Part shown: piece by piece, positions 1 through 39,160 of the stretch
Position numbering within the stretch: position 1 is the first letter of the stretch
Layout of the letters: each line of letters starts with the position of its first letter
Assembly: GCA_026398575.1 (NCBI GenBank)
Contig: JAPLSP010000637.1
Coordinates: 1 to 41,113 of the forward strand
Length of the DNA: 41,113 nucleotides
Reading direction: 5' to 3'
Origin: Candidatus Sumerlaeota bacterium
GTDB taxonomy: Bacteria > Sumerlaeota > Sumerlaeia > JADFCT01
The notes under the pieces: model-generated
Seen by the model: the letters and a program-made list of their open reading frames with translations, nothing else
Databases searched by the model: none
Told to the model about the DNA's origin: nothing
Translations under genes and position numbers: made by a program

Positions 1-97
1 CTCGCGGGACGGGCAGGCTTTTTGATCGCGCTTATCTGATTATACCGCGTCTTGGGCGCTGCGGCAGGGATATAGGATGAACTGAGAAGGAATGATT

Positions 98-5324: not shown

Positions 5325-5408
5325 CTCTGCAACTATCTCCTTTCCAAACTCTTGAGCGGCGAAGTACGCGTGGCTGAAGCGGAAAAGATCGCCAGGAGGG
5401 CCGGGTAA
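5325..5408 (+). pseudogene. Orphan C-terminal tail of an HsdS specificity subunit
   Basis: This reading frame ends in LLSKLLSGEVRVAEAEKIA before a TAA at 5406-5408. It matches the canonical terminal helix of HsdS ([12 protein letters not shown]) better than the end of the intact hsdS upstream does. Only about 27 codons are recognisable; nothing upstream in frame resembles a recognition domain. The stop codon directly abuts the darT ATG at 5409, and AGGAGGG at 5394-5400, inside this fragment, serves as the darT ribosome-binding site. The simplest reading is that an older hsdS ended here next to darT, and that the present hsdS end plus the ATPase/DUF4276 pair came in upstream. Confidence 0.65.
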
Positions 5409-6068: not shown

Positions 6069-6086
6069 CGTGGAAAGGAATCCGAC

Positions 6087-14576: not shown

Positions 14577-14597
14577 GCACGACATAAAAGTGGGTTT
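14573..14597. repeat. Left terminal inverted repeat of the ISKra4-type element
   Basis: This 25-bp end is the reverse complement of 16356-16380 except for one T/A difference in the middle. The transposase stop codon overlaps its inner edge. Confidence 0.9.
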
Positions 14598-15874
14598 TAA
14601 GCAGCCGCGATGGACGCCCGATCCTCCCAGAACTGCTCGAACCGCCCGGAGTATTGGCAACAGCGCGCGGCAATGATGGCGTTGGCGCCTTTGACAGTCC
14701 AAAACATCCCCGATTGTTTCAGGCGTTTTCCGATCAGCGTTTTGCATCCGGCCTCTACCACGCCCGAGCCGACGAACAGTCCCTGTTCGCGGAATTTCTT
14801 GTAGCGCATATGGTCGGCATTATTCTCGAAGTAAAGAATATGGTCTTCCGCTTCTTTGCGGGTTTTCTCATCGGGCGGCAAGAGCGGACGCATGTGCGCG
14901 GCCATAGATTCGACGTCTCCTTTGTCCAACATCGCCAGCCAATGGTTTTCGCGTTGGACGGTTCGCTCGGCCACGGGCAGGAGTTTCATGAATTTGTGCA
15001 GATGCTCGCGCGCATGAAACAGGTCTATGATATGAAGGGCGCCGGGGAAATGCTCGGTCGCGATGGATTTGTTGTAGGCGATCCCGTCGGTCAGAATGAC
15101 GACGCAGCCGGCTTGGCGCAGGCCGCGGCGGACGGCCTCGCCGTGGATATCATAGCCGAATTCATTGCTGGTTTTGATGGCGCCGACATACGTCATGCTG
15201 TCCGGATCGCGAACGGGGCGGCCTTCTTCATCCAGGATCGTTTGCGTGAACACGCAGCCGAGTTTGACCTCGCGCGATCTGGACGAACCGTCCGGCTGCT
15301 TGCCTTTGCGTCCGACCAGTTCCGTGGGGCGCATCGGCGCGCCCGTACCGTCGTAACTGATGTAGAGAACCGGGACGGGCGGTCCGGCCTCTGGCGGAAC
15401 GGCGCCGGCGGCTTCGCAACACAAGGCTTTGCCGGCTTGCCGTTGCATCCAGTTTTCGATTTGGCGTCCGGTAGCTTCGGCCACGCGTTCGACCTCTTTG
15501 GCGGAGGTCTTGAAATTGGCGTACAGGCCCAAGTCCTCGGCGGCCTCACGGAAACTTTCCCGACTTCCCGCGCGGGACATCACCCGTCGCGCGCCGGGTG
15601 AAAATCCGACGCCGGCCACGTCGAGCGCCTCGTCGGCCGGGACCCGCGACGCGCCGCACGTCTGGCACTCATAAACCGCGCGGGAGAATGTGACGGGCCC
15701 GAGCAGCGTTTGGATGGTCTTGCGCTTCAAGCCCCGGCTGCGCATTTTGCGCCCGCAGCGGCAACGCACGGATTTGTCCCGTCGTCCGGCGCCAAATCCT
15801 TCCAGCGCTTTTTCCAACACGCGCGCGCCCCAGGCCATCACGCTGGAGCGCACGTAAAATTCCATCGCCTCCAT
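14597..15874 (-). CDS. ISKra4-family transposase, downstream ORF (DDE domain)
   Basis: 425 codons from the first ATG, but the open frame extends up to the slippery run at 15956-15963. The real product is probably the fused frameshift protein of about 560 residues. A zinc-ribbon-like region (Cys38, Cys40, Cys70, Cys73) precedes the catalytic core, whose DDE residues are visible as Asp175 (ISYDGTG), Asp263 (VILTDGIAYNKS) and Glu374 (GSGVVEAGCK). This motif set is typical of the ISKra4 family. The stop codon lies inside the left terminal repeat, a compact arrangement usual for an intact element. Confidence 0.9.
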   Translation of the reverse strand: MEAMEFYVRSSVMAWGARVLEKALEGFGAGRRDKSVRCRCGRKMRSRGLKRKTIQTLLGPVTFSRAVYECQTCGASRVPADEALDVAGVGFSPGARRVMSRAGSRESFREAAEDLGLYANFKTSAKEVERVAEATGRQIENWMQRQAGKALCCEAAGAVPPEAGPPVPVLYISYDGTGAPMRPTELVGRKGKQPDGSSRSREVKLGCVFTQTILDEEGRPVRDPDSMTYVGAIKTSNEFGYDIHGEAVRRGLRQAGCVVILTDGIAYNKSIATEHFPGALHIIDLFHAREHLHKFMKLLPVAERTVQRENHWLAMLDKGDVESMAAHMRPLLPPDEKTRKEAEDHILYFENNADHMRYKKFREQGLFVGSGVVEAGCKTLIGKRLKQSGMFWTVKGANAIIAARCCQYSGRFEQFWEDRASIAAA

Positions 15875-22824: not shown

Positions 22825-22926
22825 AGACTACTTCTTTCGCGAAACGGGCGCTGGCTGTTTCAATATCAGGGTCTCGGTAGAGCGGGCAGTTAAGGCGACC
22901 AAATCGCCCATATCAATCACGCCATC
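22744..22926. repeat. Copy 1 of a 183-bp duplicated junction
   Basis: Matches 35631-35813 over 183 bp without gaps, with about 15 differences by eye. It covers the end of the dockerin-like domain, the 3-nt spacer and the zinc-ribbon start codon region. Confidence 0.9.
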
Positions 22927-25900
22927 GCGGTTGACGTCGCCTGCGCGTTGGTCCTCCGGCGGCAACGGCGCGATCCCGATCAGATGCTCTTTCAGCCGCT
23001 GAGGCTTCAAGGCGCCGGTGAAGTTAACGTCCATCAGATCCGAAGTTGATGGATTGATCCAACGGCTCGGCGGGCTGAAAACATATCCGGATTTGGATGG
23101 TGACATAGAGCCGGAATAAGCCATTGGAATCGAAAAAGCATATCCGCCATTTACGCCGGATGTGGCGCTGCTCAACTGGTCGGCGATGGATACCGCCGTG
23201 CTGCTGATCGGATCTCCCCAGCGCGTTTGTACCCACCCGGCAATCATGCGCAAACCGGGCGTAGGCGTGGCGGAAGCGATGGGCGTCGGCGACATGCGCG
23301 GCGTAGGTGTGTGGGTCAAGTGAGGCGTCGGCGTGGGAGTTGAATGCAGTGTGGGCGTGGGCGACGGGTGAAGTGTGGGCGACGGGTGAGGCGTAAGCGT
23401 GGGCGCTGGGATCAGCGCATAGGCGGCTGTGAAAGTGGTCACGCTGTCCATGGCCAGCGAGGCCGTAGTCGGATTCGGCGAGGGCGTTGTGTAGCCCGCT
23501 AGCGCGTTCCAAGTCAGTTCGATGACGCCGGTGGGCACGCCTGTTGTGATTGCGTCGCCCGTGCCAGTGGTGACGCGGCCATCGCCGTCGGCGAAGGACC
23601 ACGTGGCGCTTGACGGGATAACTTGGACGACGACGGTTCCGGTGGCGCGTTCGAAAACAGCTGTCAGGGCCTTGTCGGCGTCCATGACGATGTCGAGCGG
23701 GTTGTCGAGTTCGTGTCCCGGCGCCACATCGCCGGTCCAACCAACGAAGAGGAAACCTGCGTCAGCTACAGCGGTGAGCGTTACCGTTGCGCCAAAGTCG
23801 TAGGCGGCAAGATCGGGCGACTTGGCAACCGATCCGTGCTCGGCTATGATGGTAAGCGTGCAGGTATTGATCGTGAAGATCGCCGTCACGCGGATGTTGG
23901 TTGTCACGTTTGTGTCCATGCGGGACGCCGTCAGGAGGCCGTCATTCCACTGGACGAAGTGGTATCCCGTATTGGGAATCGCCGTCACGGTTGTGCCGCT
24001 GGCGCCATAATTGACCGTCTGCGTCGTCGCCCCACTGATCGAGCCATTCGCTCCGGCCGCATAGATCAGAGCGTATTGGTTAATGCCGAAATTAGCCGTC
24101 ACGGTGATGTTAGTCGTCACGTTCGCGTCCGCGCGCGATGCGGTTAGGACGCCGTCGCTCCACTGAATAAAGTGGTATCCCGTATTGGGAACCGCTGTCA
24201 CGGTTGTGCCGCTGGCGCCTTGGATGACTGTTTGCGATGTCGCGCCTGAAATGGAACCATTGGCGCCTGTATTGTAGGTCAGAGTGTAGGTGATGATAGG
24301 AGGAGGGTCATTATCCACAATCGTCAGCGTATGCAAGGACGGTTCTGCCAACGCCGCCCCCTGTGGCAGCGACAGCGCGATTACGACCGTCTCCTCCGGT
24401 TCATACAGCGCGTTGTCATTGATCGAAACTTCAATTGTGGCCGAGGTTTGGCCTGGCGCGAAAATCAAAGTGCCGCTCGTTAACGCGTAGTCCATGCCGC
24501 CGCCCGTCGCTGTGCCGCTCGTGGCCGCGTAGTCCACCATCACGATCCATTCCGCTGCGCGCGACAGCGCTAAGCTTATGGTGGCCGTCGTTGCGCCTTC
24601 CGAGACCGTCGAGGCGGCGTCCGCAAACGCCACGCCCGGCAGGCTCAGCGGCTCGCTCGCGTCGGTCATCCCATAGAAGATTGATGTCCACATCTCCGAG
24701 ACGCCGCCCGATACGCGCTCGATCTGATAGAAGTAAAGCGTCAGTGGCTGTAGACCTGATACAGCAACCTTCATGCGTCCTGGTTGCGGAGCGATGGGTC
24801 TGGCGTTGATCCGCGCGAAGCCGCTCATCTGATTCGGCAGACTCTGCTGGATGTAGAAACCGTCACCCAGAGCGGGCGGCGCGCTATTGTCCCACTCGAC
24901 CTGCATCGCGTCGCTCCCGAGCGCCGAGGCCAGGCCGTTGTTCGGGCCCGTGTTGCGCTCGAACGTCACGAAGTAGCGGAACTCGGGCGAAATGGTTCCT
25001 TGAGCCTCCACCGAGAAGAAGACCGTCTCCGCGCCCAATCCCAGCGACAGCCATGAGAATTCACCACCCGATGCGCCTATCGTCATCTCGTCCGTCTCGG
25101 TCTCATCGGGGCCGTCTTCATAGATCTTCACAACCAGATTTGAACCTGCAGGCAGCGTCATCGTCGCGAAGGCGAGCGAGAAGGGCGTCCTCGCATCCGA
25201 GATCGTCACGCACTTGAGCCAGTCCATGTTGCCAACGGCGTGTATGGTATGCGCCTGCGCAATATCGGGAGAAAGCGTGTTGCGCGTTGTGGAACTCTCA
25301 TCGTCGTTGTAAGGCGCAAGGTCATAGATATCGGGCGCGGAAGCGAGCGTTTGCTGCACGGCAAGACCGCTGAAGGCTGGCTCGCTCAATTTGTCGCTGG
25401 GCGTGTCGGGATACGCGGCGTAGAACGTCACAGAGTAGCTCCCCGACGTGAACGGCGCGGTGAAGGCGCCGCTCCAGGTCCAACTCGTCGGCGCATCGCG
25501 GGTGAATTCCACTTCGGATACCGATGAAACGGCCTGCGTTCCGCCCGCGTCGTCACATCCGGTCATCTGCGCAAACACTCGCGTCGGCTCGATGCCCTCA
25601 ATCAGACGGACCGTGTAGGACGCCGGCATCCCTCCCAGCGGCACGGTTTGCGTCGTGCTCGCTTCGAGAATGAACGGCAATCCGGCGCCTTCGGCGCCTG
25701 CAAAGGCATAGCGCCGTCCGAGATAAAGCGTCTTCGCCAATCCCCCGTCTTCAGCGGCGCTATAGAGGCCGTCGCCGTTGTCGTCCATCTGCGGCTTGAT
25801 GCGGCCACCATTGAGGAAGTATCTCAGGAACTGGTTGAAGAAAGTGTCGCCCGACTGGAAAGCCGTCTTCAGGTCATTGCCCTGGTAAGCGGCGCCGAGG

Positions 25901-28900
25901 AACTTCTGGCTGAAGCAAGTCAGTGTCGGCCACGTAAGGAAGTAGGCCGCATCGGTCTCGCGGCCGCTCGTAAAGATCGCGCGCTTCTGCCCGCCCGTAG
26001 CGCGGCAGACGGGAAGAAAGGCGCCGCTGCCCGGAGCATCCACCACGAGGACCACGGTCCAGTCTTCGCCCGGGCGCGATTGCAGCGCATCCAGAGCCGC
26101 ATCGAGCGCCGCCGCCGTGAGCGTATCGCCTGAGGCGAGCGAGACGCTCGCGCTCTCAGAGCCCGTCTCGCCTATCAAATGCACATACACTCGGCCCACG
26201 GGAACGCTCGGCAACGCGGTTACAGCGCTGAGCACGGCAGAAGCGGATGGCCATCCGCTGTTATCCGAGTCCCACCATGGGTTGATCAAATACTCAATCC
26301 AGTCCGGGCGGCTGTAGCCGTCCGGGTCCTTGAAGCGGTCGAGATAGACGCTGTAGGCATAGGGTCCCAAGTGTTCAAGGCAGGCAGCGAGCGCAAGATT
26401 GGCCGTGTCGTCCACCGCAAGGATCGCCCGGATCGGCGTCTGATCCGGATCAAGACCTTCCGAAATCACTACATGCCCATAGACCGGATTCGAGACGCGC
26501 TCATACTCGAAGCGCGCCGTGAAGGAAATCGCGTAATCCCCCTTGGCGGAGAAGAGCGTGTTGGTCGTGACTTCCCAAACACGGTAGAGCGGGCTGGTGG
26601 TCTCATCGCTCTGCCGCTTAAGGTAAAAGTGCGGCAGGTTCGTTACCGGATCGCCCGAAACGACCTCCGGCGCGGGGGGACGCACTACTGCCACGACTTG
26701 GAGCGGATTCTGGCCAAAGAACATCTTCACCCGCAGCGTCACCGCGTCTCCCGGAGAGGCGAGTGTATGGGTTGTCCATTCCTCGAACGCAGGGAAGAAG
26801 TCGTTCACATCCTGCGTGCTCTGCACCCCGTAGGCCCACGTCGCGCCGAAGAACTCCCTGTCCGCCCGCTCCGTGCTCACTGCGCCCGGCGTTGAGGTGG
26901 TGGTCCCGTCACTGAGCTGCGGTACTTGGTCCGCCACAGGAAACTCATTGAAGAACCGGCTGCCTGCACGCCATGCCTCGCCCATTGAGTTGCCCATATA
27001 GGCCGACGAGAGGAAACTATACATGAACGATGTCAAGTCGGGCGCCGGAAGAAAGACCGCCTCCTTGTCCCGCGTCGTCGAGGCAATCACGATGCGCTTC
27101 TTGCCGGCAAGGGTCGCGGGATCGTGCCCCGCCGAGCCGTGCCAACCCGCCCCGCCCGTCAGCTCCGTTGTCGTCAAGCGGCAGTCGTCCACCATCTGGC
27201 CGGAGTAGCACGAGTCCACCACCAGCGTCACTTCGGGGGCAATCCACTGTCGCGTCCCCGAGGTGTTCGCGGTCGGCGTCTGCAAGTCATCCAGCCAACC
27301 GTCGAGAGTTGTCGAAAGAAGAACTTGGGCTTCGTTCGCGCGGAACGTCATAAAGTTCTGCGTGCGCGCCCCGTGGTCTATCATCAGGATAAGAAGCCGC
27401 CCCGCGCTCTGGCCAAAGTCGCCGGTGATTGCGTCGCGGAGGTTCGCTTCGGTTGCCCATCCATCCACGTCGTTCAGCCCATCGCCGTCCGCGTCGCGCC
27501 ACGGCGCCGACTCGCCCGGAGGAACCGAGCCACTCGGAGCGGTTGGGAAGGCGGTTAGGTAGAGAATGTCCTCCGCCTCGTAGCCGCGCCGCTTGAGGGT
27601 TTTGTATGCATAGGCTGCAAGGTCGTTGGTCTGGTCGGCGATCGGGTTCCCAGCATAATCGCCGCCGCCAGCGACGATGATCGCACGGGGAGGCGAGAGT
27701 TCCCAAATGCGCGCCGTGCCGTCATACCCTCCCGTCATCACCTTCGTCCCGTCGGGCGAAAAGGCGACGGATCTGACCACAGCGGTATGCCCTAAGAAGG
27801 TGTGGATCACTGCCCCGGTCTCCGCGTTCCAGAGCTTCGCGGTCATGTCCACACTCCCCGTCAAGATCTTTGTCCCGTCGGGCGAGAAGGCGACGGAATC
27901 GACGGAATTAGCATGCCCGGAGAAGGTTCGGATCACGGCCCCGGTCGCCGAGTCATAGAGTTTGGCTCCCCCTCCCATGTACCCTCCAGTCCCCGTCAAG
28001 ATCTTCATCCCGTCGGGCGAGAAGGCAATAGGAGTTCCATATGCAGAGCCTAGGAAGGTTCGTAGCAATGCCCCAGTCGCCATGTCCCAGAGCTTCGCAT
28101 AATATTTGTTGCCTTCATTCCCTGACGTCAGAACCTTCGTCCCATCGGGCGAGAAGGCAACGGATTCGATCCCAGACGCATGCCCCAAGAAGGTCCGGAT
28201 CAGCGCTCCGGTGGCGCAGTCCCAGAGTTTCGCGGTCCCGTCTCCGTTCCTCCCTGTTAGGATTTTCGTCCCGTCGGGCGAGAAGGCGACGTGAGCAACC
28301 TGTTCAGGTTGCTCGGAGAAGGCGCGGATCACAGCCCCGGTTGCTGTGTCCCAAATCTTCGGGATTTTATCGCCTCCTTTCAAGGCTTTCGTCCCGTCGG
28401 GCGAGAAGGCCATAGAGATGACCAGATAGGAATGCCCGGAGAACATGGTACGCATAGCCCCGGTTGCCACGTCCCATAGTTTCGCGGTCTGGTCATAGCT
28501 CGCCGTCAGGACCTTCGTGCCGTCGGGCGAGAAGGCGACGGATACGACTGAGTCAAAATACCCTGAGAAGCTGCGGATCTCAATGCCAGTCGCCGCGTCC
28601 CAGAGTCTCGCGGTATAGTCATGGCCCCACCCCCCCGAATTCCCGCTCCCCGTCAGGACTTTCGTCCCGTCGGGCGAGAAGGCGACGGAGTTGACTTGTT
28701 CGATATGCCCCGTGAAGGTGGTGAGAACATCCCCCGTCGCTACGTCCCAAAGTCTTGCGGTCCTGTCTTCACTCCCCGTCAAGACCTTCGTCCCGTCGGG
28801 CGAGAAGACGACGGAGGTGACATAAGAGGTATGCCCTGAGAAGGTCTGGATCACGTTCCCGGTCGCCGCGTCCCAGAGTTTCGCGGTCTTGTCGGCACTT

Positions 28901-31900
28901 CCCGTCAGGAACTTTATCCCATCCGGAGAGAAGGCAACGGAGCTGAAACTCAGCGTACCTGAACAAGTGGCAAGAACGTCCCCCGTTGCGGCGTCCCAGA
29001 GTTTGGCAACCGCTTCATAGCGCGACCCGGTCCAAAATTGGGCACACCCCGTCAGAATCTTCGTCCCGTCCGGCGAGAAGGCGACGGATCTGACCCACGG
29101 CTTATCCGAGGATGGATCGGAAGAAGTATACCACGAGAAAGTCCGAATCTCTGCCCCGGTCGCGACGTCCCACAGCTTCGCGGTACAGTCATCCCGACCC
29201 CCCGTCAGGACCTTCGTCCCGTCGGGCGAGAAGGCAACAGACAGGGCGTAGTGTCCGGGAGCGCTGAGAATCCGCATCTGATTGCCTGTCTCAGCATTCC
29301 ATAGGACCACGCCGATACCCCCGCCCGTGGCGACGCACTTGCCGTCAGGGGAATAGGCCGCACAGTTAAGAACTCCCAATCCGCACCGCTGCAGGTGCTG
29401 CGTCTGCGTCTGTGGCGGCGACATATCATTCAGCGTGATCGTATCGCTCGAGGCCGGCGACTCGGATCCCGCGGGACTTCTCACCTTAAAATAGACGGTC
29501 TTAACTCCGTCGCCCGGAGAAAGGGGAAAGATCGGCGCGGACGAATAAGGCTGCCATGACGAGCCGCTGAAACTAGACGATTCGCTCGCTATGTATTCGA
29601 CCGGATCAAGCGTGCAAGCATTGTTCAGGGTAACGACTCGGCTCGTGGCCGTAATGGCGCCGTCGTTGATCAAGAAGGAAGAAACAACCGACGGTTCCGG
29701 TAGAATCGTATCGCTGACGCTCGCCGATTCGCACCCCGCATTTCTCACCTTGAAATAGACCGTCTTCGCGCTGTCATTGCCGGAGGAAAGGGTGAACGAC
29801 GGTGCGGACCAATAAGGCTGCCATGTCGCGCCGCTGAAACTGGACGACTCGCTCGCCATGTACTGGAACGGGCTGAGCGTGCAAACATTGTTCAAGGTAA
29901 CGACCCGACTCATAGCCATGGCGGCCCCATTGTTAATGCGAAAAGAAGTCACGCCCGGACGAAGCAGTGCGATCGTTTTACGCATGAACTGCGATTCAAA
30001 CCCAGCAGCGTTTCTCACCTTGAAATAGACTTCATTGTTAGCACCTAGTGTGAGAGTGAAGGATGGCGCAGAAGAATACGGAAGCCACGTCTCACTGGTA
30101 TAGTATGTGTCGAATGCCATGTACTCGATCGGATCGCCCGTACAAATATTGTTCAGGGTAACGACTTTATTAGTAGTCGTGTAGGCGCCGCCATTGATTG
30201 TAAAAGAAGTCACGACCGGCGCCTGCGGCAGGATCGTATCGCTCGAAACCAGCGACTCGAACCCCGAGGCATTCCTGACTGTGAGATAGACCCTCTTAGC
30301 GTCGCCACTGAGCGAGAGGGTGAACGACGGCGCAGACGAGTAGGGCATCCATACCGCACCGTGGAAATGGGACGACTCGCTCGCCATGTACTCGATCGGA
30401 TCTCCCGTGCAGGCATTGTTCAACGTAACGACCGGGCTCGTGGCCGTGGTGGCGCCGTCATTGATGGCGAAGGAGGTCACGACCGGCGCCTGCGGCTGGA
30501 TCGTATCGCTCGTTACCAGCGACTCGAGCCCCGTTGCGTTTCGCACTTTGAAGTAGACCGTCTTCGTGCCGCCAGTGACGGAAAGGGCGAACGACGGCGC
30601 GGACGAGTAAGGCTGCCATACCGCACCGTAGAAATAGGACGTCTCGCTCGCCGTGTACTCGACCGAATCGCTCGTGCAGGCATTGTTCAGCGCAACGACC
30701 GGACTCAGGGCCGTGGTAGCATCGTCGTTGATAGCGAAGGAGGTCACGACCGGCGCCGTCCCTATCGCCACCTGGTCCAGCCAGCCTGCATCTGCGCCGC
30801 GGTCTACCCCTCCGTCTTTGCTGTAGGTCCAACGCAAGGTGTGTGGGCCAGGCGAAAGTCCAATAACCTGATGATGTGTCCAGCCCACCTCGTCGCTGAT
30901 GCGAGACTCCAGGACATTGTCCACATAGAAGCTGAGAAAGTCATAGTTCGCTTCGGAAGAGACTTTCCACCAGAAAGAAACATCCACAGGTCCTTGGACA
31001 TTTGTGGCGATGAGGTTGCTGGACTGGTTGGTCCCTAGAACGCCGGTCTGGGCGGCGTCCGCGCCATCGTGAGTGACGGTTATCTGAGTGAACCAGCCAG
31101 CATTACCCGTGGTGGACCATACGAGATCGGTGGCCTCCACGGCCTCACCCAGTTCGATATCTCGGTCAAAGGCAATTGTATCGCTTGTGGCCAGCGACTC
31201 AAGCCCCAAGGCGTTCCTGACCTTGAGATAGACCGTTTTATTGCAGTTACAGCCGGAGAGGGTAAACGACGGCGTGGATGAGTAGGGCTGCCATGTTGCG
31301 TCGGCGAAAAGAATAGACTCACTTGCCATGTACTCGACCGGTTCGCCCGTACAGGCATTGTTCAGGATAATGACTCGACTTGTGGTTGTGTCTGCGCCGT
31401 CGTTGATGGCGAATGAAGCCACGATCAACGCCGTCTCTGTCGTCACTTGGTCCACCCATCCAGCATCGGCGCCGCCGACTGTCGAATCGTCCTTGCAGTA
31501 TGTCCAACGCAGGTTGTGAGCGCCGGAAGAAAGTCCGACAGTATGCTGCGTCCAGCCCACCTCGCCACTGATGCTGAACTGCGCAACATCGTCCACAAAG
31601 AAACTGAGATAATCCCCGTTTATTTCCGAAGACACTCTCCACCAGAAGGAAACTCTCAGAGGCCCCTGAACATTTTCTGCGATGAGGTCGCTGGATTGGT
31701 TGTGCGAAATAGCGCCGCTCCGGGCGGCGTCCACGCCGTCGTGGGTGGTGGCTGTCTGGCTGAACCAGTTGGCGTTGCCCGCGGTGGACGTGGTGGACCA
31801 TTCGAGGCCGGGGCAATCCAAAGCCTCGCCAAGAGCGTCGTCCGCTCTGGCAATGCGTGGGAATGCGGTCAGCAACAACAGGCAGAGCAGCGCGAGCCCC

Positions 31901-31968
31901 AGCCGTGTTGCGGAGACGATTTCTCTACTGTTCTTCCATCCGACTGAATTGCATTGCTCTGTTTTCAT
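22828..31968 (-). CDS. Giant secreted multidomain protein: WD40 propeller(s) plus C13/caspase-like peptidase, dockerin-like end
   Basis: 3046 residues with a signal peptide (about 1-43, ending IARADD). Approximate domain order: two related beta-sandwich modules (43-173, 270-400, each with SFWW-VSSE, SGAHNLRWTY/SPGPHTLRWTY and GADAGW-DQV); six ~80-residue repeats (176-263, 403-843; SFAINDGA...LNNACT...EYMASES); 13 WD40 repeats (857-1426; FSPDGTKVLTG, AKLWDVATG); a clan CD cysteine peptidase domain (1428-1716) with His1532 (IDHGA) and Cys1587 (VDSCYSG); a second, degenerate copy (1837-2090) with VDAPGSG; beta-sandwich/FN3-like region; Calx-beta (2447-2553); InlB-type repeats (2560-2777); PEGA-like segment; Pro/Thr linker (2854-2907); carboxypeptidase-regulatory-like domain; dockerin-like loop DVNRDGVIDMGDL. 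It probably acts as an extracellular peptidase or assembly platform. No clear ribosome-binding site was found. Confidence 0.88.
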   Translation of the reverse strand: MKTEQCNSVGWKNSREIVSATRLGLALLCLLLLTAFPRIARADDALGEALDCPGLEWSTTSTAGNANWFSQTATTHDGVDAARSGAISHNQSSDLIAENVQGPLRVSFWWRVSSEINGDYLSFFVDDVAQFSISGEVGWTQHTVGLSSGAHNLRWTYCKDDSTVGGADAGWVDQVTTETALIVASFAINDGADTTTSRVIILNNACTGEPVEYMASESILFADATWQPYSSTPSFTLSGCNCNKTVYLKVRNALGLESLATSDTIAFDRDIELGEAVEATDLVWSTTGNAGWFTQITVTHDGADAAQTGVLGTNQSSNLIATNVQGPVDVSFWWKVSSEANYDFLSFYVDNVLESRISDEVGWTHHQVIGLSPGPHTLRWTYSKDGGVDRGADAGWLDQVAIGTAPVVTSFAINDDATTALSPVVALNNACTSDSVEYTASETSYFYGAVWQPYSSAPSFALSVTGGTKTVYFKVRNATGLESLVTSDTIQPQAPVVTSFAINDGATTATSPVVTLNNACTGDPIEYMASESSHFHGAVWMPYSSAPSFTLSLSGDAKRVYLTVRNASGFESLVSSDTILPQAPVVTSFTINGGAYTTTNKVVTLNNICTGDPIEYMAFDTYYTSETWLPYSSAPSFTLTLGANNEVYFKVRNAAGFESQFMRKTIALLRPGVTSFRINNGAAMAMSRVVTLNNVCTLSPFQYMASESSSFSGATWQPYWSAPSFTLSSGNDSAKTVYFKVRNAGCESASVSDTILPEPSVVSSFLINDGAITATSRVVTLNNACTLDPVEYIASESSSFSGSSWQPYSSAPIFPLSPGDGVKTVYFKVRSPAGSESPASSDTITLNDMSPPQTQTQHLQRCGLGVLNCAAYSPDGKCVATGGGIGVVLWNAETGNQMRILSAPGHYALSVAFSPDGTKVLTGGRDDCTAKLWDVATGAEIRTFSWYTSSDPSSDKPWVRSVAFSPDGTKILTGCAQFWTGSRYEAVAKLWDAATGDVLATCSGTLSFSSVAFSPDGIKFLTGSADKTAKLWDAATGNVIQTFSGHTSYVTSVVFSPDGTKVLTGSEDRTARLWDVATGDVLTTFTGHIEQVNSVAFSPDGTKVLTGSGNSGGWGHDYTARLWDAATGIEIRSFSGYFDSVVSVAFSPDGTKVLTASYDQTAKLWDVATGAMRTMFSGHSYLVISMAFSPDGTKALKGGDKIPKIWDTATGAVIRAFSEQPEQVAHVAFSPDGTKILTGRNGDGTAKLWDCATGALIRTFLGHASGIESVAFSPDGTKVLTSGNEGNKYYAKLWDMATGALLRTFLGSAYGTPIAFSPDGMKILTGTGGYMGGGAKLYDSATGAVIRTFSGHANSVDSVAFSPDGTKILTGSVDMTAKLWNAETGAVIHTFLGHTAVVRSVAFSPDGTKVMTGGYDGTARIWELSPPRAIIVAGGGDYAGNPIADQTNDLAAYAYKTLKRRGYEAEDILYLTAFPTAPSGSVPPGESAPWRDADGDGLNDVDGWATEANLRDAITGDFGQSAGRLLILMIDHGARTQNFMTFRANEAQVLLSTTLDGWLDDLQTPTANTSGTRQWIAPEVTLVVDSCYSGQMVDDCRLTTTELTGGAGWHGSAGHDPATLAGKKRIVIASTTRDKEAVFLPAPDLTSFMYSFLSSAYMGNSMGEAWRAGSRFFNEFPVADQVPQLSDGTTTSTPGAVSTERADREFFGATWAYGVQSTQDVNDFFPAFEEWTTHTLASPGDAVTLRVKMFFGQNPLQVVAVVRPPAPEVVSGDPVTNLPHFYLKRQSDETTSPLYRVWEVTTNTLFSAKGDYAISFTARFEYERVSNPVYGHVVISEGLDPDQTPIRAILAVDDTANLALAACLEHLGPYAYSVYLDRFKDPDGYSRPDWIEYLINPWWDSDNSGWPSASAVLSAVTALPSVPVGRVYVHLIGETGSESASVSLASGDTLTAAALDAALDALQSRPGEDWTVVLVVDAPGSGAFLPVCRATGGQKRAIFTSGRETDAAYFLTWPTLTCFSQKFLGAAYQGNDLKTAFQSGDTFFNQFLRYFLNGGRIKPQMDDNGDGLYSAAEDGGLAKTLYLGRRYAFAGAEGAGLPFILEASTTQTVPLGGMPASYTVRLIEGIEPTRVFAQMTGCDDAGGTQAVSSVSEVEFTRDAPTSWTWSGAFTAPFTSGSYSVTFYAAYPDTPSDKLSEPAFSGLAVQQTLASAPDIYDLAPYNDDESSTTRNTLSPDIAQAHTIHAVGNMDWLKCVTISDARTPFSLAFATMTLPAGSNLVVKIYEDGPDETETDEMTIGASGGEFSWLSLGLGAETVFFSVEAQGTISPEFRYFVTFERNTGPNNGLASALGSDAMQVEWDNSAPPALGDGFYIQQSLPNQMSGFARINARPIAPQPGRMKVAVSGLQPLTLYFYQIERVSGGVSEMWTSIFYGMTDASEPLSLPGVAFADAASTVSEGATTATISLALSRAAEWIVMVDYAATSGTATGGGMDYALTSGTLIFAPGQTSATIEVSINDNALYEPEETVVIALSLPQGAALAEPSLHTLTIVDNDPPPIITYTLTYNTGANGSISGATSQTVIQGASGTTVTAVPNTGYHFIQWSDGVLTASRADANVTTNITVTANFGINQYALIYAAGANGSISGATTQTVNYGASGTTVTAIPNTGYHFVQWNDGLLTASRMDTNVTTNIRVTAIFTINTCTLTIIAEHGSVAKSPDLAAYDFGATVTLTAVADAGFLFVGWTGDVAPGHELDNPLDIVMDADKALTAVFERATGTVVVQVIPSSATWSFADGDGRVTTGTGDAITTGVPTGVIELTWNALAGYTTPSPNPTTASLAMDSVTTFTAAYALIPAPTLTPHPSPTLHPSPTPTLHSTPTPTPHLTHTPTPRMSPTPIASATPTPGLRMIAGWVQTRWGDPISSTAVSIADQLSSATSGVNGGYAFSIPMAYSGSMSPSKSGYVFSPPSRWINPSTSDLMDVNFTGALKPQRLKEHLIGIAPLPPEDQRAGDVNRDGVIDMGDLVALTARSTETLILKQPAPVSRKK
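27690..29410 (-). repeat. DNA array encoding 13 WD40 repeats
   Basis: The same 18-20-nt stretch encoding FSPDGTK recurs about every 125-150 bp, with conserved LWDVATG codons between. Repeat sequences are similar enough at DNA level to allow recombination and change in blade number. Confidence 0.85.
29430..31440 (-). repeat. DNA region encoding six ~80-residue beta repeats and one of two larger modules
   Basis: Six copies share a core encoding VVTLNNACTGDPIEYMASES and a WQPYSSAPSFTLS stretch. Copies 3 to 6 are the closest to each other. The second of the two larger 130-residue modules separates copy 1 from copy 2; the first lies just upstream of this region. Confidence 0.8.
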
Positions 31969-32264: not shown

Positions 32265-35200
32265 TCAACGTTCGATTGAATGCAACAACTTCTCCGCCCG
32301 CGCTTCCTCGTTTCGGTTCTGCTGGAGGCGGGCTTCGGCGATGGCTTCGCGCGCCGTTTCCAAGGCTTCCGCCGAATGGCCTGCCATCTGGCACGCCAAC
32401 GCTTTAAGGCGCAGGAGACGCGGTAACTCAAACCGATAGCCATGCTTTTGCAGCGTCTTGCGCGCGGTTTCCAGCGCCGCTCCGATCCTGCGCGTTTTTC
32501 CCTCGGCCAGCCGCAATTCGATATCCGTCAGGTCCAGTGAGAATTGCCGTTCGGCGTCGCCAATCTGGCGCGCTGCTTTCCGGCCTTCCTCAAGACAGCG
32601 GCGCGCGTCGGCGAACTGGCGAAGTAGAATGTGCGCAAGGGCCAGGTTCTCCAAAGCAATGGCGGCGCTGCGGCGGTCGCCGATTCGTTCGGCGATCTCC
32701 AGGGAACGGGCGGCGTGATCCAGGGCTTCCGCGCCGCGTTCCTGCACGAGGCGCAAGTTGGCCAGGTTGCCGTGCGCGGCGCCGATGACCACGGTAAAGC
32801 GAACCTGCTCGGCCAGTTTTAGCGATTCGAGATAGTGCTTCTCCGCCACCTCCAGCCGCCCCAGGTTCTCTTCGATGATTCCCTGGTTCATCAGCGTCTG
32901 CGCGATGAGGAATTTGTCGGCGGCTTTATGGCGCAGGCGCAGCGTTTCCTTGAACAGGTCCAGCGCCTGCCCCAGCCGGCCAGCCTTCCATTCGAGGAGG
33001 GCGAGGCCGTTGAGGGCGTCGGCGGCCAGATTGGGCTGAAGCTTTTCGAGCCGCAGGTCCCTGAGCCGCTGGAAGAAGCGCACCGCCTGTTTGAAATCCC
33101 CCCGCCCCCAGGCGCAGCTGCCCTGGCCATTGGCGACCATCCCCAGCAGCCTGCGATCCTTCAGGCCGCGAGACATGGCGGCGGCGGCGGCGAGCTCTTT
33201 TTCAGCCTCCCTATAGTGGCTCGTCTGTAACCAGGTCAATCCGACGTCGGCGCGCAAGCGGACCAAATCCAGTTTTCGCTTCAGGGGAAGGGCCACTTCC
33301 AGGGCGGCGTTAAAACACTCCATCGCGCGCGTCTGGTCGCCGCTGCGGCGCAGAATTTTGCCTTTGGCCGAAAGAATCGTCGCCCGCAGGCGCAGGTTAT
33401 CTCGTGTCGGTTTGAGATGCAGCGTTTTGGCCAGCGCATCGTCATAATACTGCACGGCGTCGTCCACCGCTCCGAGGGACGAAGCCTGGTCGCCCGCGCG
33501 CTTCAAGTATCGCGCGGCGCGGTCGTGCGCGTCGCTGCTCGCGAAGTGATAAGCCAGCAAGGCGGCCAGATCGTCCAGACGATCGGCATACTTTTCCTCT
33601 ATCTGTTGCGCGACGATGAGATGAAATTCGCGCCGCTGGTGGTCGAGGAGGCTCCGATAGGCCACTTCGCGCGTCAAGTGATGGCGGAAAAGGAATTCCA
33701 GCCCCTCCGGTGGAACCGTATCATCCTCCAGGAACTCCAAACTGACGAGCGAATACAAGTGCTCCAAAAGCCCTTCGCGAATCAGCTCGATCAGTTCGAT
33801 GATTTGGAGGGCGAACCGCCGTCCGACCACAGCGCCACATTGCAGGACCAGCTTGCGACGCAGATCGAGCATATCAATGCGCGATTGCAGCATTTCTTTG
33901 AGGGTGGGTGGCGTCCAAGACTCAATCTGGCGCGCCAATTCCCTGCTGGATACGGATTCCCGCCCTGTCGCTCCTGGCGCTTCAGCTGCCGCGCTCGCCT
34001 TGGCCGCGTCGTCGAGTTTACGGTTAAGAAGACGCATTAATTCCTGCATATAGAACGGATTGCCCTCGGCATGTTCCAGGAGGCGGTCCCGGATTTCGGG
34101 CATGATCTCGCGGGCGTTGAGCAGCGAATTGAGCAAGGCTTGGCGGCTGGCGTCATCCAGGTCGCCGACCATAATTCGTTCGAATGCGCGCAGCCCTGGC
34201 GTCTTGAGCGAAAAACCCGTGCGATGCGCGATCAGGAAGAAAACACCTCGCGCCGGCTTGGCAGACTCATCGGGGCCTCCAACGAGCGCGTCCAAGGCTT
34301 GCAAGCTTGCGGCGTCGGCCCACTGCACATCGTCCAGCATCAGAATCAGAAGGCGTTCAGCGGAAAGGCGTTCAAGGAGATCGCGGATTTGCGCGATGAT
34401 CATCTGCCGCACGCGCGCCGGAGGCAGGGCTGCGAGCAAATGAACCGCCTCCTGGAATCCCGACAGGGCTTTGAAGACGACTTGGTCGCCCGGTTCGAAC
34501 CCGAGCGCCAAAAAGGCCCGCTCCAGTTTGCCGCGAGCGGCGTCCGGCGAATCATTTGCCGCTCGGCCGCATATCTGATCAAGCAGCGAGCGCCACAAGC
34601 CCCATGGAATCTTCGCCCCATAGGGGGCGCCTTCAATAAACAGCGTCCTGGCCTTGTCGCGAACCGATTCGCAAAACTCCATTGCCAGCCGGGTTTTGCC
34701 GATGCCCGGTTCGCCCACAAAAATGGCGCCATTCGCAACCGTCGCTGCGGGCGGGGGCGAGCCGGGCGACTGCCTGTCCTGCCCATCCACGAACCGGTTC
34801 CATAACTCCCCCAGCTGGTCAAGTTCTTTCCTGCGCCCAACGAATGGCACGGTGAAATCGCGGCGCATAACCTTGGCTTCCTTCACATCCAAAACCTCGT
34901 ACGTGACAATCCGACCCAAAACGTTCTTGAATTTGCGCGGGCGCATCTTGCGCAACTCAAACACGCCCTTGACCAACTCATGCGTGGCCGGACCGATACG
35001 GATCGTATCGGGAGCGCACGCCGTCTCGATGCGCGCCGACAGGTTGACCGAGGCGCCAAACACGTCATAGGTAAGCATCCCCGGCGCAGTGATGACCGAA
35101 GAAAGAATCTCACCCGTCTCCACGCCGGCCCTGATTTGTATGCGCGCGCCATGGATGAGCGGGAACGCGCGCACGCGCCGGCGAATATCCAGACACGCCC

Positions 35201-35711
35201 GCACGGCCGACTCCGCATCGCGGTCATAGGCCACCGGCGCGCCAAAAACCGCGTGGCAGGCGTCGCCCGTGAACTTGATTACGAATCCGTTGTAGAAGTC
35301 CACCACCTGCGAGCAAATCTCATAAAACGGATTCAAGATTTCCCTTTTGATGACCTCCGCTTCCAGCTTCTCGAATAGCGACATGTAGCCCATGATATCT
35401 ATGAAGATCACCGACGCCTCGCGATGGCCTTCATCCGATCGTTCCAGGAAGGCCGCCAGGCGCTGGCGCTGCCGGAGCGAAATCTCGACGCCGGCGCTTG
35501 AAAATCGCGAATCCACCAACGCCTGCAGCGCGTCCACGAACGAACGCTCCGTCGCCGGCGTTTGTTCCCTGTAGAAACGCCGTTGTTCGGGGGGCACGGT
35601 GGGAGGCGCCGGTTCGCCGGTCAGATTGGTGAAACAGAACCGGCACATTTTAGCCCCCTCGCGAATCTCCTCCGCGCAGACGGGGCAGGTCTTGTATCCA
35701 AGGCGGGACAT
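32265..35711 (-). CDS. Zinc-ribbon / class III adenylate cyclase / AAA ATPase / TPR protein
   Basis: 1148-residue cytosolic signalling protein. An N-terminal zinc ribbon has Cys9, Cys12, Cys23, Cys26. The class III cyclase domain (about 97-280) has both metal-binding aspartates (Asp105 in FIDIMGY, Asp150 in KFTGDA), the transition-state residues Asn223 and Arg227 (VNLSARIE), and Lys146/Asp216, the pair that selects ATP. Cyclic AMP is therefore the expected product. An AAA/STAND-like ATPase follows (VGEPGIGKT, 332-340; LLILMLDDVQWADA), then about 12 TPR-like repeats to the end (YLKRAGDQASSLG, ALENLALAHILL). AAAGAGG 7 nt before the ATG lies inside the end of the preceding dockerin gene, whose stop is only 3 nt away, so the two are co-transcribed and probably coupled. 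Confidence 0.92.
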   Translation of the reverse strand: MSRLGYKTCPVCAEEIREGAKMCRFCFTNLTGEPAPPTVPPEQRRFYREQTPATERSFVDALQALVDSRFSSAGVEISLRQRQRLAAFLERSDEGHREASVIFIDIMGYMSLFEKLEAEVIKREILNPFYEICSQVVDFYNGFVIKFTGDACHAVFGAPVAYDRDAESAVRACLDIRRRVRAFPLIHGARIQIRAGVETGEILSSVITAPGMLTYDVFGASVNLSARIETACAPDTIRIGPATHELVKGVFELRKMRPRKFKNVLGRIVTYEVLDVKEAKVMRRDFTVPFVGRRKELDQLGELWNRFVDGQDRQSPGSPPPAATVANGAIFVGEPGIGKTRLAMEFCESVRDKARTLFIEGAPYGAKIPWGLWRSLLDQICGRAANDSPDAARGKLERAFLALGFEPGDQVVFKALSGFQEAVHLLAALPPARVRQMIIAQIRDLLERLSAERLLILMLDDVQWADAASLQALDALVGGPDESAKPARGVFFLIAHRTGFSLKTPGLRAFERIMVGDLDDASRQALLNSLLNAREIMPEIRDRLLEHAEGNPFYMQELMRLLNRKLDDAAKASAAAEAPGATGRESVSSRELARQIESWTPPTLKEMLQSRIDMLDLRRKLVLQCGAVVGRRFALQIIELIELIREGLLEHLYSLVSLEFLEDDTVPPEGLEFLFRHHLTREVAYRSLLDHQRREFHLIVAQQIEEKYADRLDDLAALLAYHFASSDAHDRAARYLKRAGDQASSLGAVDDAVQYYDDALAKTLHLKPTRDNLRLRATILSAKGKILRRSGDQTRAMECFNAALEVALPLKRKLDLVRLRADVGLTWLQTSHYREAEKELAAAAAMSRGLKDRRLLGMVANGQGSCAWGRGDFKQAVRFFQRLRDLRLEKLQPNLAADALNGLALLEWKAGRLGQALDLFKETLRLRHKAADKFLIAQTLMNQGIIEENLGRLEVAEKHYLESLKLAEQVRFTVVIGAAHGNLANLRLVQERGAEALDHAARSLEIAERIGDRRSAAIALENLALAHILLRQFADARRCLEEGRKAARQIGDAERQFSLDLTDIELRLAEGKTRRIGAALETARKTLQKHGYRFELPRLLRLKALACQMAGHSAEALETAREAIAEARLQQNRNEEARAEKLLHSIER

Positions 35712-35813
35712 AGACTACCTCTTTCGCAAAACGGGCGGTGGCTGTTTCAACATCAAGGTCTCGGTAGAACGAGCGGCCAAGGCGACCACATCGCCCATAT
35801 CAATCACGCCATC
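35631..35813. repeat. Copy 2 of the 183-bp duplicated junction
   Basis: The intact counterpart of 22744-22926, covering the dockerin-like end of the subtilase gene and the cyclase start. Confidence 0.9.
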
Positions 35814-38792
35814 ATTATTGATATCGGCTTGGCGCATTTGTTCCGGTGTCAGGCTTCTTCTTTGAAGCAAATAATCAATCAAAACCGGCAACGTCACCGG
35901 CGTGGGATTCGGCGTCGGAGTCAACACCGGCGAGGCTGTGGGCGACGAATGAGGCGTTGCTGTTGAGGTTGAATGCGGCGTCGGAGAGGGGGTAGGAGAC
36001 GGATGCAAAGTCGGCGTGGGCGAAGGGGTCGGGCCGGGATTGGTCATCGCAAAGAATATCTCCGTCCATTGGGTCGCGTTGTTCTGCGCATCCACAATGT
36101 CCACAAGATAAAAGTAGAGCGTGTTCTGCGAAAGCCCTGCATCGTTGAACTCGGGCAAGGGCTGCGGCGAGCTGTTGACTCTCTGGAAACTACCCAGGTC
36201 AAGGGAAAGGCCGCGACGGATATTGTAGCCCAGCGCGTCGGCGGGCTTGCCGGTCTCCTCCCACGTGCACCGCATGGAATCGCTTCCGAGCGCAACAGCC
36301 AGACCGTTGTTTGCGGAGTTGCCGCCGCTCGTGTCCACGATAAACGTATGTGTGCAATCGTCGGGGATCAGGAAACCGTCGGCTGCTGTTGCGCCTGAAA
36401 CGCGCAGCGTATTGATTCCGTCGCCCGTGTCGCTGCCGACGGAGAAGAAAGCCTGCCACGTGGTTGAGGTAATCCAGCCATTCGCGCCTCCGGCGTCGGG
36501 CAGGACGACGTGTGCCGTATAGGGCAAAGCCGCGCCAAATGTGACGGCTGGCCGGATCGCCGGGTCCATTGCTTTGCTGAAGACCAGGGTGAACGTCGTC
36601 TGCCCGACGTTAACCGGATCGTCTTGATTGGGCATGACGAACAAGAGAAATGCGGGCGCCAGAGTTGCGTCAAGCGCATTGGGCGCCGGGCTGGTACGGT
36701 AGGGCCAAACATCGAGCAGCCAATTGCCGGAGCCGTCCAGCGTGTCCTGCAGGAATGGCATGTTGTTGAACTCCGCGCTCGCCGCGAGCAGCGCCGTGTT
36801 CGACGTTCCCCACCAGTTGTTCTCGAAATTGCGGTCGCCTGAACCCGCCGTCACGTTGTCAAAGGCCTGCCAAACTCCCTTGTTGCCGTAGATATTCGAA
36901 TTTGTCAGCGACAGGATGTTGCGCGTTCCGATCCCGCTGTTGTTCAGGATTGCCGAATATGACACGGCTCCGGAACCTCCGGATGAATAGATCCCGTCCG
37001 AGCCATTTTCCGCAATCCACGAATTCGAGATCGTTCCGAAGCTGCTTAAAGAAAAGATGCCATAAGAGCCGTTGCCTACGACCCAGGAGTTTGTAAGCGA
37101 GGCCAGTCCATTGACGCCGCAGCCCGTGTTGCCGACGATGGTTGAATTGCTGATCGCTCCGCCTGTTACGCCGTCGCCAGTATTCGCGCCAACATAGGCG
37201 CCCGAGAGCATGGAAGCGCCGCTCACGCCCAGCGTGTTGCTGGCGATGGCGCAGTTCTGGACTATCGTCACACCCGAAATCGCCGAGCCCGTGTTGGCCG
37301 TGATCCGGATGTTCGAAATGGTCGAGGCGCCGGAGCCGGTCACGCCGACACCCAGGTTCCCCTCGACGACGCAATCGGAGATTGTAGAGCCGTCGGTCAG
37401 TATGCCGCCGCCGTTGTAGGATACCGTGCAACTGCTCGCCGTCCCGCCGCCGCTGATCTCAAGGCCGCGACCCGTATTGAAGCTCGCGGCACAGTTGGTC
37501 AGGTTGCCGCCGGTAGTTTTGATCCCTATGCCCCTGTTGTCGCGAGCGGCACAGTTCTGCGCTCCCGCCGTCAGCGTGAGGCCGGCGCCCGCGCAGAATT
37601 CGGACGTGGAATCTGTCGCGCTCGCGCCGCTGATGCCGTTCCCCCCGTTACTATATCCGTTTCCGTAAGCTGTGCAGGAGGTGAGCGCCATACCGCTCAG
37701 GCCGGCGCCACCATTCCAAGTCGCCGTGCAGCGCGTGAGCGGACGCCAGCTTGCAGCATCAATCCCTGGTCCAAGATTCAGCGTCGCCGTTGTATCCGAA
37801 ATAGTTGCAGTCCCGGCGGTAAAGCGCGCGCCAAATTCCGTGTTCCCCTGCAAGAGGCATTGTGTGACTGAGACGTTTGGTATTTCAGCAAGCAGTCCTG
37901 CGCCCTTTTCCACCACGCAGAAGGCGAAGTTGGCGCTTGATGCGACGTTCGTCACCCAAAGCCGGCCCCAGGCGCCACCGGGCGCCGTTGCCACGTTGTA
38001 TTCATCCGCGCCGATGTCGCATGTTGCGCCCGACCGAACGTCGCCATCCATGTCAGCAATGGGAACGCTTGAATCTGCCCCTGGACCGATTCCCGCGCCC
38101 CGGTTGGGGGACGAAGGTTGGATGTGATAATCCTCAACGCGCCATGCTTGCGGCGGGCGCACTGCTCCGCCCCGTGTCATGTCGCCCCAGACCGTGATCG
38201 TGTCAGCGGTGTTGGATAGGATAACGTAGTAATAGGTACCCACTTGTATCTCACGGCCATTCAGAGCGCCTTCCGGCAGAGGATCGCCGTGGTGGCGCAG
38301 TACGCTCGTGAATGATACTTCATCATAGCCCGCTGCGGTAACAGTGCCCCAATAAGGGGACACAACAAAGCGCGAGTCGGAGTCAATGTTGTTTCCCCCC
38401 AGTCCGCTCCACGCGGCATTGATATTGCAGTAGCTAACCGTGGGAGAGCCGGAATAAACATTTATGGGGGTACCGCCGTTCAGGCGAACCGTGCAGTTCG
38501 TGATAATGGCAGAGGCATTCCAGCAATAAATTCCGCCACCCGAATTGCTGATAATTGTGCAGTTCGTGATCGAGGGGGCGCAATTAAAGCAAGAAACACC
38601 GCCGTAATATGAGGCCGAATTTCTAGTGATCGCACAGTTCGCAATCGAGGGGGAGCCATAAGAGCAATAAACACCACCACCGCCGCCTGCTGAATTTCCA
38701 GTAATCGCACAGTTCGTGATAGAGGGGGAGGATCTGTAGCAAAAAACTCCGCCGCCGTCTCCCGCCGAATTTCCAGTAATTGCACAGTTCAC
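35715..38792 (-). CDS. Beta-helix and dockerin-like part of the secreted subtilase, downstream of a frameshift
   Basis: Reading frame of 1025 codons that begins inside the beta-helix repeats (NCAITGNSAGDGGGVFC) with no signal peptide and no ribosome-binding site, so it is a continuation and not a separate gene. A right-handed parallel beta-helix of roughly 22-24-residue coils covers about residues 1-690. It is followed by an Ig-like domain (FTLVFSKAMDPAIRP), an FN3-like domain (LPEFNDAGLSQNTLYFYLVD), a Pro/Thr/Ser/His linker (PSPTPTLHPSPTPSPTPH) and a single dockerin-like calcium loop DINNDGVIDMGDVVAL. The early coils each carry two Cys (VYC and NC). The final segment is duplicated at the end of the WD40 giant. 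Likely exported together with the subtilase domain encoded upstream. Confidence 0.85.
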   Translation of the reverse strand: MNCAITGNSAGDGGGVFCYRSSPSITNCAITGNSAGGGGGVYCSYGSPSIANCAITRNSASYYGGVSCFNCAPSITNCTIISNSGGGIYCWNASAIITNCTVRLNGGTPINVYSGSPTVSYCNINAAWSGLGGNNIDSDSRFVVSPYWGTVTAAGYDEVSFTSVLRHHGDPLPEGALNGREIQVGTYYYVILSNTADTITVWGDMTRGGAVRPPQAWRVEDYHIQPSSPNRGAGIGPGADSSVPIADMDGDVRSGATCDIGADEYNVATAPGGAWGRLWVTNVASSANFAFCVVEKGAGLLAEIPNVSVTQCLLQGNTEFGARFTAGTATISDTTATLNLGPGIDAASWRPLTRCTATWNGGAGLSGMALTSCTAYGNGYSNGGNGISGASATDSTSEFCAGAGLTLTAGAQNCAARDNRGIGIKTTGGNLTNCAASFNTGRGLEISGGGTASSCTVSYNGGGILTDGSTISDCVVEGNLGVGVTGSGASTISNIRITANTGSAISGVTIVQNCAIASNTLGVSGASMLSGAYVGANTGDGVTGGAISNSTIVGNTGCGVNGLASLTNSWVVGNGSYGIFSLSSFGTISNSWIAENGSDGIYSSGGSGAVSYSAILNNSGIGTRNILSLTNSNIYGNKGVWQAFDNVTAGSGDRNFENNWWGTSNTALLAASAEFNNMPFLQDTLDGSGNWLLDVWPYRTSPAPNALDATLAPAFLLFVMPNQDDPVNVGQTTFTLVFSKAMDPAIRPAVTFGAALPYTAHVVLPDAGGANGWITSTTWQAFFSVGSDTGDGINTLRVSGATAADGFLIPDDCTHTFIVDTSGGNSANNGLAVALGSDSMRCTWEETGKPADALGYNIRRGLSLDLGSFQRVNSSPQPLPEFNDAGLSQNTLYFYLVDIVDAQNNATQWTEIFFAMTNPGPTPSPTPTLHPSPTPSPTPHSTSTATPHSSPTASPVLTPTPNPTPVTLPVLIDYLLQRRSLTPEQMRQADINNDGVIDMGDVVALAARSTETLMLKQPPPVLRKR

Positions 38793-39160
38793 AATTGAGG
38801 GGGAGGAGCTGTCGCAAGAAACTCCGCCACCTTTAGTGTTCGCCGAATTACCGGTGATGGCGCAGTTCGTGATCGAGGGGGAGCCACCAGTGCAATAAAC
38901 ACCGCCGCCCCAATACCCCCCCCCCTATTGCCGATAATCGCGCAGTTCGCGATAAAAGGGGAGGAGTTGGCGCAATAAACCCCGCCGCCGTATGCAAATG
39001 CCTCGTTGCCGGTGATCATGCAGTTCTTGATCGAGGGGGAGCCACCACAGCAATTAACACCGCCGCCACCGCTATTGGGGTAATTGCTCGCCAAATTGCC
39101 GGTGATTATGCAGTTCGTAATCATGGTGGAGGCGCTATTACAATAAACCCCGCCGCCGTT
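38480..39160 (-). repeat. Tandem 69-72-bp repeats encoding Cys-rich beta-helix coils
   Basis: About nine to ten near-identical units encode SPSITNCAITGNSA and GGGVYC. Each unit contains G runs (C runs on the + strand); the longest is the ten-base run at 38916-38925. Confidence 0.8.

Follow-up and report, generated by a model that had tools for sequence, protein, structure and literature searches.

A legumain-like peptidase domain and its own dead copy in one apparently exported WD40-headed protein of a Candidatus Sumerlaeota bacterium

The window analysed here is a stretch of 41,113 nucleotides (contig JAPLSP010000637.1, assembly GCA_026398575.1, Candidatus Sumerlaeota bacterium). It encodes P0001, a protein of 3046 residues in which a WD40 propeller head precedes a legumain-like peptidase domain with an intact catalytic dyad (D1) and a homologous copy that has lost the dyad (D2). 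An earlier note on this DNA had described a clan CD peptidase domain joined within one chain to its own pseudo-enzyme, and this description holds. The open reading frame (ORF) proved real and lies on the minus strand, which had been left unnamed. The pair of an intact and a dead copy was kept in several phyla, which makes the dead copy most likely a partner that has been retained, not debris. We conclude that the pairing is real, with a probable function.

D1 and D2 were related by BLASTP at an E-value of 2e-12, and alignment of their profiles with hhalign (28 D1 rows against 34 D2 rows) gave a probability of 100 and an E-value of 3.4e-58 over 223 columns. The modules that follow them, I1 and I2, were aligned at 99.6% (E 9e-25). 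The homology of both parts indicates that a unit of peptidase plus module was duplicated. The motifs named in the earlier note were all recovered. D1 carries IDHGAR at residue 1530 (His1532) and VDSCYSG at residue 1584 (Cys1587), and the flanks shared by the two domains are FLSSAYMGN (1652) and FLGAAYQGN (2023), and AGSRFFNEF (1668) and SGDTFFNQF (2039), in D1 and D2 respectively. D2 reads VDAPGSG at residue 1976 in place of VDSCYSG, and HLIGETG stands where the DHG motif would be. Arg1625 and Gly1659 were invariant across both domains (49 of 49 D1 and 49 of 49 D2). Pfam C13 matched 6 of 14 D2 members at E-values up to 1 (best 1.5e-4), and the D2 profile returned 8 sequences among solved structures at E-values up to 10, the best being a weak match to GPI transamidase (E 0.019).

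Asparaginyl endopeptidase and legumain were the top solved structures for a profile of 16 D1 domains (6dhi, E 2.1e-5), with GPI transamidase, metacaspase-4 (E 0.0015), and a CHAT protein (E 0.017) among the lower matches. Pfam C13 matched 13 of the 16 D1 members at E-values up to 1 (best 1.5e-12), and a Pfam caspase family was absent from the 8 families listed for them at this threshold. The window D1 alone matched no Pfam family at E-values up to 10. Four of five whole relatives passed the C13 cut-off of 22.8 bits, namely L004, L006, L007, and L008 with 57.3, 39.4, 41.7, and 48.1 bits, respectively, and L012 did not. An assignment of D1 to the caspases (C14) was set aside without being rejected, as solved structures and Pfam both favour C13. 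The caspase-like label of the earlier note stood only in part, through a caspase model taken up below. D1 appears to be legumain-like (C13) and nearer to this family than to the caspases, a label held with reserve, and is predicted to have peptidase activity.

Two protein searches yielded 27 homologues besides the query, some of them named Sumerlaeota. Identity to the tandem was 34.8-73.5% in P0005-P0012 and P0017-P0019 (for P0008 over the first 606 positions), and the distant tandems P0013-P0015 (24.8-27.1%) were also active then dead. Alignment A3 took in 20 of the 27 homologues and comprised 34 rows, 28 of them with both domains; P0016, P0024, and P0027-P0031, being fragments with D1 or D2 only or distant, were left out. 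His and Cys were both kept by D1 in 28 of 28 rows, with the His-Gly and Cys in clan CD motif order, as they were in 49 of 49 members of a larger set. D2 was without His in 34 of 34 rows and without Cys in 32 of 34, Cys being retained by L004 and L008. A scan of species genomes with one peptide pattern containing DDxGDG gave at least 44 loci, and active-then-dead tandems among them occurred in Sumerlaeota, Omnitrophota, Hydrogenedentota, Desulfonema/Desulfobacteraceae, a gammaproteobacterial symbiont, and an uncultured bacterium. Weak partial matches counted, the D1 profile matched 14 of 14 genomes behind active-dead loci. For the phyla to which G002, G008, and G006 belong, the genomes matched were 15 of 40, 27 of 68, and 33 of 198, respectively, with only part of the candidates scored in some genomes of the last phylum.

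The state of each copy was surveyed in 255 ORFs, obtained from 242 loci and the proteins of both homologue searches after merging at 97% identity. Two or more scored copies were found in 66 ORFs, with 61 active-dead, 1 active-dead-dead, 2 dead-active (L014 and L025), and 2 dead-dead chains (L085 and L225). None of the 66 was active-active, and 62 shared the order of the window protein. A catalytic second domain, which the earlier note had named as evidence against its reading, was found among them only in L014 and L025, both with a dead first copy. Three further ORFs were kept outside the 66, two because their first copy was unreadable and one because its two matches are pieces of a single domain. 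The single-copy ORFs comprised 125 active, 50 dead, and 2 unreadable ones, and 9 ORFs had only short matches; many surveyed ORFs end at contig edges, and a single-copy state may reflect fragments of tandems.

Neighbouring single-copy genes on the same strand formed 18 pairs, 13 active-active and 5 mixed. L231 (counted active-active) and L186 (counted mixed) look like pieces of frame-broken tandems, and without both 12 of 16 pairs were active-active. In-chain and neighbouring-pair states differed with a Fisher p of 2.2e-11, a value that overstates the evidence because the rows are related and not independent. A dead copy next to an active one was thus not the usual state of neighbouring genes, contrary to an idea that had been considered, most neighbour pairs being active-active. 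In the second copies of the 62 active-first ORFs, no His stands at the His place (one gap), and the Cys place holds Pro in 22, Asp in 12, Cys in 4, and a gap in 3. Neighbouring in-chain copies were spaced 317-423 aa from start to start in 51 of 53 cases. A third, diverged dead copy was observed in the chain of L001:1114-9912, beginning 1363 residues past the D2 start. The single-copy dead proteins L016, L021, L128, and L131 carry motifs like YLIGxVE and LEGSQS, and an active single-copy gene lies in the same locus as the dead one for L016, L021, and L128.

Trees of the D1 and D2 domains were built without near-copies and truncated domains, and the tandems fall into clans with different heads. 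Clan I has WD40 heads by Pfam and includes the window protein, and clan II has FG-GAP heads (10 of 12). Clan IV has NHL heads; in the set of 20 heads scanned for it, 19 match NHL and 1 matches FG-GAP, and the odd one is probably L224, which is placed with clan II by the tree. Clan III belongs to the gammaproteobacterial symbiont and has a head of W-N-G repeats without a Pfam name, judged by eye to be a propeller. Four columns of the DDNGDG...DG loop, which we take to be of a kind able to bind calcium, were kept at 94-98% in 49 D2 copies, counts that are partly biased because the locus scan used the DDxGDG pattern. This loop is partly lost from D1 in clans I and IV. A sharing out of calcium-like loops, N-terminal in D1 and C-terminal in D2, fits clans I and IV and not clans II and III; it was traced by regular expressions only and was put aside as a hint.

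Within the clans, the D1 copies are deeply separated from the D2 copies, with no pairing by protein. Two D1/D2 trees required four label changes each, three of them forced by starred branches, and two further trees required four with all four forced, one of these having been built without the active-site columns. One single D2 group appeared in 0 of 200 bootstrap trees, with a 5-95% range of 4 to 4 changes (two trees, including the active-site-free one). A single D2 clade was rejected (p 0.0074 and, in another test, p 3.5e-5), and in line with these trees a single I2 clade was rejected at p 0.022, in a quick tree with few columns. L042, a single-domain protein from the same genome as clan III, branches just outside the D1 and D2 pair of that clan. 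In L014 the protein's own two copies are nearest each other, with the dead copy first, and this tandem represents a further origin. The D1/D2 pair probably arose more than once, the trees showing three or four separate splits.

The interpretation that we favour, with somewhat better than even confidence, is that P0001 is an exported sense-and-cut protein. Its beta-propeller head, here WD40, would bind a partner or surface, D1 would do the cutting as a cysteine peptidase with an intact His-Cys dyad, and D2, having lost the dyad, would be kept as a built-in partner in the same chain that holds or scaffolds D1 or switches it. Physical contact between D1 and D2, and regulation through it, are to be expected under this interpretation, and a dimer-like mechanism is plausible. 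Several points weigh against it. The C13 label of D1 is not exclusive, because 15 of 16 D1 members also match a caspase model of NCBIfam, caspase_w_EACC1 (best E 1.7e-13), for which the window D1 scores 16.1 bits against a cut-off of 140. The largest tree, which is without the single-domain relatives, needs three splits and not four, and in it the D1 copies of clans I (WD40) and II (FG-GAP) fall into one group and their D2 copies into another (96, starred). Single-active ORFs are common in the survey (125 of 255, part of them cut by contig ends or fragments of tandems), and as a rule D1-type domains may therefore do without D2. According to the available text of one source, legumain monomers are active (PMC4357240), and the analogy with dimerising caspases drawn in the earlier note is weak for this reason; the same text gives no obvious structural reason that forbids caspase-type dimers (PMC4357240). 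Lastly, a pseudo-enzyme can be retained as a binding module without touching D1.

D2 as a stand-alone binding or structural module, for a substrate, glycan, metal, or neighbouring protein, and without action on D1, is an alternative that we regard as rather doubtful. The DDNGDG...DG loop is kept in the D2 copies, the chain carries other adhesion-type modules, and the ORFs with one dead copy only (50 of 255, some of them tandem fragments) agree with such a role, but it leaves unexplained why in-chain pairs are never active-active while neighbouring genes often are, and the loop counts carry the bias of the scan pattern. Less probable still is that D2 and its module form an inhibitory pro-part or decoy for D1 that activation would release or displace. 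In the text available, the C-terminal domain of legumain holds the enzyme in this way (PMC4357240), and the near-constant spacing of the in-chain copies would suit such a part, whereas the 8 matches of the D2 profile among solved structures include no legumain C-terminal domain. That D2 is a decaying duplicate without function is very improbable. Its dyad is gone and it diverges faster between proteins than D1 (mean identity 33.1% against 40.7%, 351 pairs), but purifying selection acts on D2 with roughly the same strength as on D1. The ratio of nonsynonymous to synonymous substitution rates (dN/dS) in ten close pairs was 0.06-0.31 for D2 and 0.05-0.32 for D1, values that are rough because many dS exceed 1. 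Neutral decay was rejected because dN/dS is low and D2 is retained in dozens of proteins across several phyla, and is largely contradicted.

On the evolutionary side, we tentatively propose, at less than an even chance, that a single bacterial family of legumain-like peptidases gave rise to the enzyme/pseudo-enzyme pair on three or more independent occasions, in the arrangement propeller-type head-active-module-dead-module, with WD40, FG-GAP, NHL, or unnamed-repeat heads, and that the pair is the indispensable regulatory part of a sense-and-cut machine outside the cell, with an exchangeable sensor head. A single ancient duplication, with D1 and D2 later undergoing gene conversion at the base of each clan, would also give several apparent splits, and we consider it the less likely course. 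It would account for the Gly before the lost His, which 58 of 62 second copies have in common and which takes the place of an Asp in D1 (92%), and for the three changes and united D2 copies of clans I and II in the largest tree. It fits poorly with the deep separate groups of D1 and D2 within clans, which are not paired by protein, and with the position of L042 just outside the pair of its own genome; long-branch error, moreover, would draw the D2 copies together, not apart.

Among known systems, the C13 enzymes legumain (asparaginyl endopeptidase) and GPI transamidase are the nearest solved relatives of D1. To our knowledge, legumain has no pseudo-copy. The window protein differs from legumain in being bacterial and propeller-headed, with a signal-like start and a dead copy, and a C-terminal LSAM domain is a feature of legumain. 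Gingipain R is exported, and its additional subdomain is a partial sheet, unlike D2, a complete though dead copy followed by a module of its own. In the text available, it is a clan CD peptidase (C25) with an extra N-terminal subdomain of four strands (PMC4357240). Like Csx29 and separase, P0001 joins a dyad-bearing domain to a homologous dyad-less domain in the same chain. Csx29 is intracellular and belongs to another clan CD family than D1 and D2, and its pseudo domain comes first and the active one second, opposite to the window protein and 62 of 66 ORFs. The accessible part of its description reports a TPR-CHAT protein of Craspase whose single chain contains both a pseudo-caspase domain and an active caspase domain, under allosteric control and said to resemble separases (PMC10028731); an earlier modelling paper on separase, by its accessible part, did not find the second domain (PMC4626109).

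CspBA of Clostridioides difficile has, like P0001, the protease first and the pseudoprotease second; unlike P0001, it is a spore protein processed by YabG. It is of the subtilisin type. The protease CspB is fused there to the pseudoprotease CspA, which has been implicated as a co-germinant sensor in the portion of the report available (PMC6464247). Csx29 and CspBA are better precedents for the window protein than caspase dimers. Bacterial orthocaspases are clan CD peptidases of bacteria like D1, but caspase-type. Abstract-level sources state that pseudo-variants of them exist (PMC6426788) and mention WD40 in connection with them (PMC2853523). The pseudo-orthocaspase is by its abstract a variant of the orthocaspase itself, and the opening of that abstract mentions no second in-chain domain. 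No tandem like that of P0001 was announced in the titles and abstract openings found, a search that lay outside most subscription papers and preprints.

The features of P0001 are given in Table 1. The 13 SPDG motifs of the WD40 region span residues 872 to 1403. The accessory modules that had been proposed were confirmed for the WD40, Calx-beta, and InlB-type regions, which pass their Pfam cut-offs, and not for the dockerin, as the match of the tail to the type I dockerin family reached 17.4 bits against a cut-off of 22.9. An fn3-like stretch after I2 likewise scored under the Pfam cut-off. Module I1 may adopt a beta-sandwich fold. A simple export rule was satisfied by 24 of the 29 tandem proteins having an upstream region, and P0001 is apparently exported, as judged from its sequence.

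Table 1. Features of P0001 with residues and positions in the window
Feature	Residues	Position	Strand	Remark
Whole ORF, propeller-peptidase-pseudopeptidase protein	1-3046	22828..31968	minus	from ATG
Signal-peptide-like N-terminus	1-42	31843..31968	minus	hydrophobic LGLALLCLLLLTAF, ARA at 40-42; by eye and simple rule
N-terminal repeats	43-865	29374..31842	minus	about 820 residues; no significant Pfam family
WD40 region	868-1427	27688..29367	minus	SPDG motifs and Pfam PF00400
D1, legumain-like (C13) peptidase domain	1428-1712	26833..27687	minus	dyad intact
DADGDGLNDVD loop of D1	1492-1502	27463..27495	minus	calcium-loop-like
Catalytic His codon of D1	1532	27373..27375	minus	
Catalytic Cys codon of D1	1587	27208..27210	minus	
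Module I1, between D1 and D2	1713-1845	26434..26832	minus	homologous to I2 (hhalign)
D2, pseudopeptidase copy	1846-2095	25684..26433	minus	
Glu in D2	1934	26167..26169	minus	where catalytic His would stand
Pro in D2	1979	26032..26034	minus	where catalytic Cys would stand
DDNGDG...DG loop of D2	2062-2075	25744..25785	minus	conserved among D2 copies
Module I2, after D2	2096-2220	25309..25683	minus	hhalign
Calx-beta domain	2446-2554	24307..24633	minus	passes Pfam cut-off
InlB-type (Flg_new_2) repeats	2561 to ~2790	23599..24288	minus	passes Pfam cut-off; end by eye
Dockerin-like C-terminal tail	2992-3046	22831..22995	minus	below Pfam cut-off

The C-terminal end of P0001 is shared with the beta-helix protein P0003 (ORF 35715-38792), with 29 of the last 40 residues identical; the shared dockerin-like ends lie at 22828-22950 and 35715-35837 on the minus strand and are below the Pfam cut-off in both proteins. 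P0003, a beta-helix with the dockerin-like tail, overlaps by a few bases with P0004, a subtilase (S8) with the start of a beta-helix (together 35715-41113, minus), and the two look like one frame-broken gene, the break being real or from sequencing. Adjoining the P0001 gene, the ORF at 32265-35711 (minus) encodes a guanylate/adenylate cyclase, AAA ATPase and TPR protein. A UPF0236-family gene is located at 14597-15874 (minus); this family includes transposase-like proteins. A defence island at 92-10182 (plus) comprises the M, S, and R genes of type I restriction-modification, and between them lie two gene pairs, one of an AAA ATPase and DUF4276 and one of DarT and a macro domain. Among the relatives, the C-termini of P0012 and P0020-P0023 end in W-x-L-Y-E-stop. 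Among 40 genomes from the phylum of G002, 27 contained the corresponding DNA pattern, with 87 occurrences in all against 1 match in the backward-read control, and the ending is possibly a short C-terminal sorting tag.

P0001 presents a known kind of pair, an active protease with a pseudoprotease, here in reversed order, legumain-like, and apparently exported. It also suggests that uncultured bacteria have a large number of apparently exported peptidases of the legumain-like kind, of which no description was found in the part of the literature searched. One family supplies active-plus-dead pairs by the dozen, probably of several origins, as well as active and dead copies that occur singly, and such natural variety makes it testable whether in-chain duplicates must lose one site and what role the dead copy has.

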